A stretch of 36,608 nucleotides of DNA from Desulfobacteraceae bacterium (GTDB lineage: Bacteria > Desulfobacterota > Desulfobacteria > Desulfobacterales > Desulfosalsimonadaceae). Positions within the stretch are counted from its first letter, which is position 1, and every line of letters begins with the position of its first letter. Positions 26,694 to 30,697 of this stretch are shown one piece after another. The notes beneath the pieces are model-generated. The model was not told the DNA's origin. It saw only the letters and a program-made list of their open reading frames with translations, and did no database searches. The DNA is taken from the NCBI GenBank assembly GCA_021737225.1, contig JAIPEJ010000006.1:1-36608 (forward strand), in the 5' to 3' direction. Position numbers and translations under genes: made by a program.

Positions 26694-27620
26694 ATGTTGA
26701 GCGAAAATCCGGACTTGGCCGTGGACATCGGCGGCATTTGCCTGAAAAATCCAGTCCTGACTGCATCCGGCACCTTCGGGTACGGCGTGGAGTTCGAAGA
26801 GCTTGTGGATTTGAATCGGCTCGGGGGCATTATTGTAAAGGGTCTTTCCCTGTCACCGGCCGCGGGCAACCCGCCGCCGCGGATTGTGGAAACCGCCTCC
26901 GGAATGTTGAATGCCATTGGCCTTGAAAACATCGGTATCGATGCCTTTATCCGGGACAAACTGCCCCGCTTGAGCGGTTATGAAACGCCGGTGATTGTCA
27001 ATACTTATGCCACAACCGAGGAGGCCTACGCCGAGCTGGCAGCCCGGATTGACAGAGAGGATCAAATCGCCGGTATCGAGGTCAATATCTCGTGTCCGAA
27101 TGTCAAGGCCGGAGGGTCGGCTTTTGGCGTTGATCCGCAGGCAGCCGGACGTGTGGTGACAGCGGTTCGCCGGAATACGAAAAAACCCTTGATTGTCAAA
27201 CTTTCTCCGAATGTGACCGATATCGTGTGCGTGGCCCGCCGGGTGGAGGACAGCGGCGCGGATGCCGTTTCCCTGATCAATACCATCACCGGCATGGCCG
27301 TTGATATCCACACCCGCCGGCCGAAGCTGGGCAATGTCACGGGCGGTCTTTCCGGACCGGCCATCAAGCCCGTGGCCCTGCGCATGGTCTGGCAGGTTGC
27401 AGAAGCGGTGAAAATCCCGGTGATCGGCATCGGCGGCATTCTGTCCGCAGAGGATGTGCTTGAATTTATGATTGCCGGTGCAACGGCCGTGGAAATCGGT
27501 ACCGCCAATTTCGCGAACCCGCAGGTGACCATGGAAATCATTGACGGTCTTGTGCAATATATGAAGACAAACAATGTTGAACGCATTCAAGATATTGTGA
27601 AGACTTTGACCAATTGTTAA
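26694..27620 (+). CDS. pyrD: Dihydroorotate dehydrogenase, class 1B-like catalytic subunit
   Basis: [80 protein letters not shown]. Confidence 0.94.
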
Positions 27621-27643
27621 CTGCAAAGCAAAGGAGTCAGGCC

Positions 27644-29089
27644 ATGCTGAAAAAACTCGTTGTCACAGTGCTGGCTGTATTACTGGCTGCGTCGCTGTGT
27701 CCGGCCCGCACGATTGAAAACGTGGATCTTCCGGAAACAATGGAGATCGGGGACAAAACGGTCGCGTTAAACGGCGGGGGCGTTCGCACGTCAATGTATC
27801 TGAAGACATACGTGGGCGGGCTCTATGTGCGCGAGGCCAAAACCGGGGCCGATGCCGTGATCAATGCAGACCAACCCATGGCGATCCGGCTCCATATGAT
27901 CGAGGATGTGGGCCAGCAAACCATGAAAACCGCAATTCATAATGGTTTTCGGAGTGCGACCGGCGATAATATCGAGCCGATTGAATCGGAGATTGACACA
28001 TTTATGGAGTGTTTTTCAGACCCCATCAAAAAAGGCGAGGTTTTTGAATTTGCCTATCTGCCGGGTAAGGGGACTGAAATTTACAAGCAGGGCGAACTCC
28101 GATCAACTATAGAAGGCCTTGAGTTTAAAAAAGCCATGTTCGGCATCTGGTTTTCCGATAAGCCGGCGGATAAGAAATTAAAGAAAGGAATGCTGGCCGG
28201 CGACATTCGCGTGTCCCCGGAAAAGCTCGCACCGGAGGGCGAAACCGCCGTGGCAACGGCTGAAAAATCGGCCGAAGAAAAGGCTGTTGCAGAAAAGGCG
28301 GCAGCAGAAAAGAAAGCCAAGGAAAAGGCCGCAGCAGCAAAGGCTGCGGCAGAGAAGGAAGCAGCAGACAAGGCGAAGGCCGCAGAGGAAAAAGCCGTTG
28401 CCGCGGCAGAAAAACAGCCGGATGCCCCGGCTGCAGGATCCGGGGCTGAGGCAAAGGCGGCAGGTGAAACGGCTGCCGCGGCCGGGGCTGCTGCAGGAAA
28501 GGCCGCATCCGGAAAGAAAAAAGACCAGCAGGTTGCTGTAAAAAAGTCTCCCGAGAAAAATCTGCCCGCGTCGGCAACTGTACAGGAAGCAGCCGCGGAA
28601 GAAACGGCTGCCCGGTCAAAGACGGAAAAACCTGAAAAAGAAAAGGCCGGGGAAAAGGCTGAGGAAAAGGCCGCGGCAGCGGCCGAAAAGCAGCCTGCGG
28701 AAAAAGCCGAAAAGCAGGCCGGGAAAAAGGAACAAAAGGTGCCGGGCACCTCGGTTACCCGCGCCCAGGTGGTTGAAGAGGATATCTATTTTGACGTAAA
28801 TGATGCTTCCCTGTCGGATCAGGCCTTGGACCGGCTGGCCCGGAAAAAAGAGTGGCTCAGTGCCAATCCGGATACTTCGGTATACGTGGAGGTATATTGC
28901 GATTCCCGGGGCTCGGAGGATTACAACACCTGGCTGGCGCACAAAAGGGGCCGCAGTGTCAAGACGTACCTGGTCAACAAAGGCGTTGCCCCCGCCCGGA
29001 TCCGCGTCAAGATCCGGGGCGAAGAAAAGTCTTCAGGCGGGGAAAACATGGACAAGAGCCGTCGGGCACATTTCGAGATCAAAGAATAG
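27644..29089 (+). CDS. Chalcone-isomerase-like domain + Ala/Glu/Lys-rich linker + C-terminal OmpA-like domain, secreted
   Basis: Signal peptide MLKKLVVTVLAVLLAASLCPA; CHI-like segment MYLKTYVGGLYV...AIRLHMIEDVGQQTM...FSDPIKKGEVFEFAYLPGKGTEIY...FKKAMFGIWFSDKP; low-complexity AEKAAAEKK linker; OmpA-like FDVNDASLSDQALDRL...YCDSRGSEDYNTWLAHKRGRSVKTYLVNKGV. Confidence 0.87.
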   Translation: MLKKLVVTVLAVLLAASLCPARTIENVDLPETMEIGDKTVALNGGGVRTSMYLKTYVGGLYVREAKTGADAVINADQPMAIRLHMIEDVGQQTMKTAIHNGFRSATGDNIEPIESEIDTFMECFSDPIKKGEVFEFAYLPGKGTEIYKQGELRSTIEGLEFKKAMFGIWFSDKPADKKLKKGMLAGDIRVSPEKLAPEGETAVATAEKSAEEKAVAEKAAAEKKAKEKAAAAKAAAEKEAADKAKAAEEKAVAAAEKQPDAPAAGSGAEAKAAGETAAAAGAAAGKAASGKKKDQQVAVKKSPEKNLPASATVQEAAAEETAARSKTEKPEKEKAGEKAEEKAAAAAEKQPAEKAEKQAGKKEQKVPGTSVTRAQVVEEDIYFDVNDASLSDQALDRLARKKEWLSANPDTSVYVEVYCDSRGSEDYNTWLAHKRGRSVKTYLVNKGVAPARIRVKIRGEEKSSGGENMDKSRRAHFEIKE

Positions 29090-29111: not shown

Positions 29112-29144
29112 CCGGGCGGGCGGAAAAGCCCGCCCGGATTTTTT
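29112..29144 (+). terminator. Rho-independent terminator
   Basis: CCGGGCGGGC-GGAAAA-GCCCGCCCGG followed by ATTTTTT, downstream of the OmpA-fusion CDS. Confidence 0.92.
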
Positions 29145-29158
29145 GGGGAAAACGGCGG

Positions 29159-30697
29159 CTATACAGACTCGGCCTTGCGCGGCGGGTGGCTTTTGAGATA
29201 TTCCAGCCGGTTTAAGCCGTTGATATAAGCAAACGCGCTGGCAGTGATAATATCCGGGTCCGCCCCGCGGCCCAGCGCGATCACGTCGCTTTCCTTCAGA
29301 CGAACCGAGACCTCGCCCTGGGCGTCGGTGCCGCCTGTAAGGGCGTTTACCGAAAAGCGCATCAGCTGGGATTCGGTTCCCGTGAGCTCCGAAATGGCGT
29401 TGAACACCGCGTCAATCGGACCGTTGCCGCTTCCCGTGCAAAACGTTTCATTGCCGTTGATCACCATCTTCACCGTTGCCGTGGGCATCACAGTGGTGCC
29501 GGCGGTAACGTGCAGGTAGGTCAGCGAATAGATATCCGCGGTCCGCAGCACCCCTTCGTTGACAAGGGCTTCGAGGTCCTCGTCGAGCACGACCTTTTTC
29601 TTGTCCGCCAGTTCCTTGAATTTCTTGAAAACCAGCTTGAGCTCCTCTTCGGAGAGATCATAGCCGATATTCTGGAGGTGCTTGTGCAGCGCGTGCTTTC
29701 CGGAATGCTTGCCCATGACCATTCGGCTCGTTGTCAGGCCGATGGTCTCGGGTTTCATGATTTCATAGGTCATGGGGTTCTGGAGCACGCCGTGCTGGTG
29801 AATTCCCGCTTCGTGAGCAAATGCGTTGGCCCCCACTACCGCCTTGTTGGGCTGCACCATAAGCCCGGTAATCATGCTTACCAGCCGGCTGACACGGTAG
29901 ATGCGCGTGGTCTCGATCCCGGTGGTCACCGGCAGATAAGTGGGCCGGGTGTTTAACGTCATGACCAGCTCTTCCAGCGAAGTGTTGCCGGCCCGCTCAC
30001 CGATTCCGTTGATGGTGACCTCTGCCTGCCGGGCCCCGTTTTCGATTGCCGCCAGTGTATTGGCGGTGGCCAGCCCCAGGTCGTTGTGGCAGTGCACGCT
30101 CAGAATCGCTTTGTCCATATTCGGCGTGTTTTTCCGGACATAGGCCACCAGTTCCCCGAATTCATGGGGAATCGCATAGCCCACCGTGTCCGGGAGATTG
30201 ACGGTTTTGGCTCCGGCGTCAATAACGGCTTCAAATACCCGGCAGAGAAAATCCGGGTCGGTTCGGGAGCCGTCTTCAGCGGAAAATTCGATGTTCCCGG
30301 TCAGGCTGTTGGCATATTTTACCGCGTCAACAGCGCTTTTGACCACCTCCTCCCGGGACATATTGAGCTTGTACTGCATATGAATATCCGAGGTGGCCAG
30401 GAAAATGTGGATTCTCGGGTGGGCTGCATGGCTGATCGCCTTCCAGGCCCGGTCAATGTCGTGCACCGAGGCCCGGGCCAGGGCAACCACTTCAGAGTTG
30501 ACCACCTTCTGGGCCACTTCCGAGACCGCTTCAAAATCGCCTTCAGAGGCAGCGGGAAATCCGGCTTCCAGGGCGTCCACGCCCAGTTTTTCGAGCTGGG
30601 TGGCAATCCGTACCTTTTCGGCCTTGTTCATGCTCGCCCCGGGCGACTGCTCTCCGTCGCGCAGGGTGGTGTCAAATATATATACCTTCTCTTTCAT
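29159..30697 (-). CDS. leuA: 2-isopropylmalate synthase
   Basis: FDTTLRDGEQSPGASMN; LSVHCHNDLGLATANTLAAIENGARQAEVTINGIGERAGN; C-terminal regulatory domain. aggagt Shine-Dalgarno upstream. Confidence 0.95.
   Translation of the reverse strand: MKEKVYIFDTTLRDGEQSPGASMNKAEKVRIATQLEKLGVDALEAGFPAASEGDFEAVSEVAQKVVNSEVVALARASVHDIDRAWKAISHAAHPRIHIFLATSDIHMQYKLNMSREEVVKSAVDAVKYANSLTGNIEFSAEDGSRTDPDFLCRVFEAVIDAGAKTVNLPDTVGYAIPHEFGELVAYVRKNTPNMDKAILSVHCHNDLGLATANTLAAIENGARQAEVTINGIGERAGNTSLEELVMTLNTRPTYLPVTTGIETTRIYRVSRLVSMITGLMVQPNKAVVGANAFAHEAGIHQHGVLQNPMTYEIMKPETIGLTTSRMVMGKHSGKHALHKHLQNIGYDLSEEELKLVFKKFKELADKKKVVLDEDLEALVNEGVLRTADIYSLTYLHVTAGTTVMPTATVKMVINGNETFCTGSGNGPIDAVFNAISELTGTESQLMRFSVNALTGGTDAQGEVSVRLKESDVIALGRGADPDIITASAFAYINGLNRLEYLKSHPPRKAESV

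Follow-up and report, generated by a model that had tools for sequence, protein, structure and literature searches.

A gene in the window, that is, the whole 36,608-nucleotide stretch of Desulfobacteraceae bacterium DNA analysed here, encodes a chalcone isomerase (CHI)-like domain joined by a long Ala/Glu/Lys-rich linker to a Pal-like OmpA domain, and the same fusion recurs across one Desulfobacterales family, whose members are uncultured and related to sulfate reducers. On balance, we lean towards regarding the product as a periplasmic protein that uses a CHI fold to carry or buffer a hydrophobic ligand and would be held on peptidoglycan by its Pal-type anchor.

As the earlier note had proposed, the predicted secreted CHI-like and OmpA domains belong to a single ORF beginning with a signal peptide (Table 1). 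Both were detected by Pfam well above the cut-offs: PF16036 with E 2.2e-50 and 171.4 bits (cut-off 27), and PF00691 at aa 382–469 with E 2e-13 and 50.9 bits (cut-off 27.2). The ASLC motif of the signal peptide has Leu at −1, hence there is no lipobox, and the alignment of the fusion proteins showed mostly (S)xA-R at the same cleavage position in the relatives. The missing lipobox suggests that the fusion product is a soluble secreted protein. It also argued against identifying the protein as a Pal lipoprotein, as did its TIGR02802 score of 64.6 bits against a cut-off of 125.35. On the same strand, 23 nt separate the end of pyrD from the fusion gene. This gap is 23–25 nt in the window's genus, where co-transcription of the two genes is likely, and 89–118 nt in most relatives, where it is less certain. 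The strong terminator noticed earlier at the end of the gene was found again as a bidirectional terminator-like hairpin between the fusion gene and the convergent leuA-like gene.

Table 1. Position of the fusion gene, its parts and its neighbours in the window
Feature	Position	Strand	Description and basis
CHI–linker–OmpA fusion gene	27644..29089	+	481 aa; single uninterrupted ORF, ATG at 27644, stop at 29089
Shine–Dalgarno-like AAAGGAG	27630..27636	+	7 nt before the ATG of the fusion gene; sequence
Signal peptide, ~aa 1–21	27644..27706	+	no lipobox; cleavage near CPA/RTI; read from sequence
Chalcone_3 (PF16036) CHI-fold domain, aa 21–184	27704..28195	+	Pfam, conservation, structure comparison
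Predicted linker helix, aa 198–254	28235..28405	+	AlphaFold model
Ala/Glu/Lys linker, probably disordered, aa 257–369	28412..28750	+	pLDDT about 30–43; composition
Pal-like OmpA (PF00691) domain	28787..29056	+	Pfam, D420/R435 conservation, structure comparison
Bidirectional intrinsic-terminator-like hairpin	29112..29137	.	10 G-C pairs and T-run; between fusion gene and convergent leuA
pyrD (dihydroorotate dehydrogenase, class 1 family)	26694..27620	+	conserved upstream neighbour
leuA-like gene	29159..30697	-	conserved convergent neighbour; named by eye

The CHI homology of the N-terminus, claimed earlier from the letters, was supported. Modelled alone, the domain gave a pLDDT of 93.1 and a pTM of 0.90 (AlphaFold), and the same region reached a pLDDT of about 89–96 in the full-length model. 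Foldseek matched the CHI model to CHI-family structures (E 4e-10), namely CHI enzymes including plant CHI, CHIL, AtFAP3, AtFAP1 and Aim18p, so that a CHI fold is supported for the model, at about 12–19% identity to the solved structures. When the CHI profile was compared with the sequences of PDB structures, AtFAP1 (4doo, E 8.8e-5) scored best. R48 and Y56 are invariant in 19 of 19 aligned fusion proteins, and a second, separate HMMER segment, which is very weak (−3.1 bits), pairs them in AtFAP1 with an Arg and, 13 residues further on, a Tyr, which we take to be its fatty-acid-binding Arg103/Tyr116 pair. R48 and Y56 probably occupy the positions of the fatty-acid-binding Arg and Tyr of AtFAP1.

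The OmpA region was modelled with a pLDDT mostly of 83–93, and its nearest relative was E. coli Pal both by sequence (E 3e-10) and by structure (Foldseek, TM 0.82). Five of its residues, D420, G423, N428, L431 and R435, are invariant in the 19-row alignment of the fusions. D420 and R435 align with an Asp and an Arg in E. coli Pal and are 15 residues apart, as are the diaminopimelate-binding residues Asp271 and Arg286 of Acinetobacter baumannii OmpA (PMC5974059). The Asp and Arg are therefore at the places expected for diaminopimelate binding, as had been suggested before.

The description of the linker as an Ala/Glu/Lys-rich, probably helical, TolA-like segment of ~210 residues stood in part. 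The composition was right (33% A, 16% E and 18% K), while the two HMM matches are separated by 185 aa, a little less than the length given earlier. In the AlphaFold2 full-length model, built on the 19 fusion proteins, helicity holds for about the first third of the linker, which forms one helix of ~57 residues, and the low-confidence stretch that follows is probably disordered. The likeness to TolA is one of composition; no TolA family was found among the Pfam or NCBIfam matches. Linker length ranges between 68 and 185 aa across the fusions, and every protein except one retains the Ala/Glu/Lys bias; variable length combined with kept composition fits a tether rather than a fixed-length spacer.

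The census, which covered genomes sampled across the family, order and phylum, detected PF16036 in 90 of 395 genomes of the phylum, in 176 of 390 of the order and in 28 of 36 of the window's Desulfobacterales family. The census bore out the previous view that the stand-alone protein is the usual form. The architecture itself proved not to be special to one genome: translation of the loci revealed an OmpA domain after the CHI domain in 19 genes from 18 of the 36 family genomes and 7 of its 10 genera. Outside this family, no CHI–OmpA fusion was found among the order and phylum frames in the matches listed (for the order, all but the weakest). The conservation of the fusion proteins in 18 genomes at 30–93% identity ruled out chance or a frame artefact. 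The named relatives recovered by a contig scan with subfamily alignment A2 are metagenome genomes that carry labels such as Desulfobacteraceae, Desulfococcaceae and Desulfobacterales. Plasmids contributed four PF16036 relatives, and both of the two inspected were stand-alone.

Several variant loci were seen along the way. A tandem pair of CHI–OmpA fusion genes lies behind pyrD in G427 (L080, 4066–6875). Two further genera have a long linker followed by a different short C-terminus (L089, 4535–5635, in G417; L091, 4358–5302, in G411); these C-termini resemble each other around AAFLVNA.K and in an MW-containing helix-like end, with no Pfam match. The one other long frame listed for the order (G517, 458 aa) has no OmpA domain, and its N-terminal part overlaps pyrD in another frame. 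The long frames of the phylum (599, 835, 805, 543, 596 and 516 aa) were likewise rejected as fusions: their CHI domain is C-terminal, and they lack OmpA. At four phylum loci (L064, L067, L068 and L070), a C-terminal CHI domain is preceded by 200–430 residues of unidentified sequence, which may be a real extension or merely an open frame. The genome of the window has a second, stand-alone CHI gene (L002; G000:C162:29153–29668), flanked by nitronate-monooxygenase/FabK-like and LexA-like genes, both named by eye.

A tree of 74 CHI domains placed the 19 fusions in one clade (99/97), which also contains the two forms with a long linker and a different C-terminus, as well as a CHI-only gene from one congener. 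This clustering of the fusions with a few derived relatives makes a single origin likely. Three changes of the fusion label were counted on the tree, which fits one gain and two losses. The simplest reading is that the linker and OmpA domain were gained once and later lost or replaced, the order of events not being proven. Most fusion genes, including that of the window, are located between pyrD and leuA; three fusion genes of the genus g246 (L083, L086 and L087) lack this neighbourhood in the stretch covered. Stand-alone CHI genes from other families of the order also adjoin pyrD, often together with leuA: both neighbours were seen at L114, L119, L132 and L133, leuA at L109, L112 and L127, and pyrD at L111, L113, L116, L121, L125, L129 and L131. 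Consequently, the pyrD neighbourhood is probably older than the fusion, and its adjacency was discounted as a sign of joint function. In three genomes of the window's genus (G402, G406 and G407), pyrD and leuA adjoin each other and the intervening CHI gene is missing, and in a fourth (G408) a CHI domain alone occupies the place of the fusion. These congeners indicate that the fusion is dispensable and its role not central. Several of the other matchless genomes also lack pyrD in the assembly, thus absence is uninformative there.

According to the reading we favour, the N-terminal CHI domain would act not as an enzyme but as a pocket for a hydrophobic ligand with a carboxylate, such as a fatty acid, a lysolipid or haem, while the C-terminal Pal-type domain would clamp the protein to the diaminopimelate of peptidoglycan. 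Being long and variable in length, the linker could let the pocket sweep the periplasm between the wall and the membranes, and the anchored protein would serve as a ligand buffer or carrier unable to diffuse away. The protein probably arose once, when a stand-alone CHI gene, which was older and lay beside pyrD beforehand, acquired the linker and OmpA domain. The analysis established the domain content, the predicted folds, the conserved residues, the grouping in one clade and the distribution, whereas export, peptidoglycan binding, the class of ligand and the carrier role are inferred. Lipid or ligand binding by the CHI domain is a reasonable inference; its plant relatives bind fatty acids and its fungal relatives haem (PMC9996372). 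On a Burkholderia plasmid (L134, NZ_CP071828.1, 211928–220272), a stand-alone PF16036 gene lies in a row of genes that includes lipocalin, FAD oxidoreductase, DUF1365 and CFA-synthase-like genes. This setting hints weakly at lipid chemistry for the family, the plasmid protein being a distant relative (27% identity over 114 aa). The more specific proposal of a wall-tethered shuttle, which would move or buffer fatty acids, lysolipids or haem between the membranes, is offered tentatively.

The ligand cannot be told from the Arg/Tyr pair, since the yeast proteins Aim18p and Aim46p share the Arg and four of the five FAP1 pocket residues and bind haem, not fatty acids (PMC9996372). This leads to the first alternative, which amounts to the favoured explanation narrowed to one ligand: the CHI domain could be a haem-binding module for sensing, buffering or electron handling, held at peptidoglycan. 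Mutation of the conserved CHI Arg reduced haem binding in the fungal proteins (PMC9996372), R48 is invariant in the fusions, and Aim18p (8ew8) is among the Foldseek matches. We nevertheless regard this as rather unlikely, as the plant CHI/FAP matches are stronger than Aim18p by both sequence and fold, and not every aligned fusion retains the His that the window protein has at position 85. The lineage of the host bacteria is rich in periplasmic cytochromes, which counts in favour of haem.

That the CHI domain is a structural or protein–protein module without a ligand of its own, like plant CHIL, and the fusion mainly serves envelope structure, seems improbable. CHIL proteins associate with chalcone synthase in complexes (9kah and 9wbe are among the fold matches), and the dispensability of the gene within the genus would suit such a role. 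However, the invariance of the Arg and Tyr, both candidate pocket residues, points to a ligand site that has been retained, and a soluble N-terminus would provide no second anchor joining the wall to a membrane, unlike in OmpA or Pal. An enzymatic function as chalcone isomerase or a related lyase can hardly be entertained: of the catalytic Arg, Thr and Tyr of CHI, the Arg position is kept as R48, and CHI enzymes occur among the fold matches, but the position of the catalytic Thr48 appears in the weak alignment segment to read Tyr (Y56), as in FAP1, identity to the solved CHI-family structures is low, and no flavonoid genes were seen around the fusion gene.

CHI-fold proteins have been studied mainly in plants and lately in fungi. 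Both domains of the fusion are of known kinds, and their lineage-specific combination is not described in the open-access literature searched, where neither a CHI–OmpA protein nor a function of a bacterial CHI-like protein was found. A wall-anchor fusion kept across a family places a bacterial CHI domain probably in the periplasm, at the wall, and offers a testable protein bearing on the ancestral CHI function, whether fatty-acid or haem binding. Should the tentative shuttle proposal be true, a bacterial CHI-fold protein would be assigned a specific location and task in the envelope.

Among the closest known systems, the stand-alone Chalcone_3 proteins of Desulfobacterales have the same domain; they are about 190–220 aa long and often encoded directly 3′ of pyrD and convergent with leuA, but are without the linker and OmpA domain. 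AtFAP1 and AtFAP3 (4doo and 4dol) share the fold, and AtFAP1 probably has its Arg and Tyr at matching places; these plant proteins have no peptidoglycan anchor and show 17–19% identity to the CHI domain of the fusion. Aim18p and Aim46p have the CHI fold and the conserved Arg in common with it, whereas they reside in the mitochondrial inner membrane, contain a fungal loop and match more weakly than plant CHI/FAP. TolA has a linker of similar Ala/Glu/Lys-rich composition; in contrast, the only membrane helix of the fusion is the signal peptide and much of its linker is predicted to be disordered. With Pal and OmpA-family proteins the fusion shares the C-terminal domain and the diaminopimelate-binding Asp and Arg, yet Pal is itself a lipoprotein and OmpA contains a barrel, while the fusion, with no membrane anchor seen, pairs this domain with a CHI fold.
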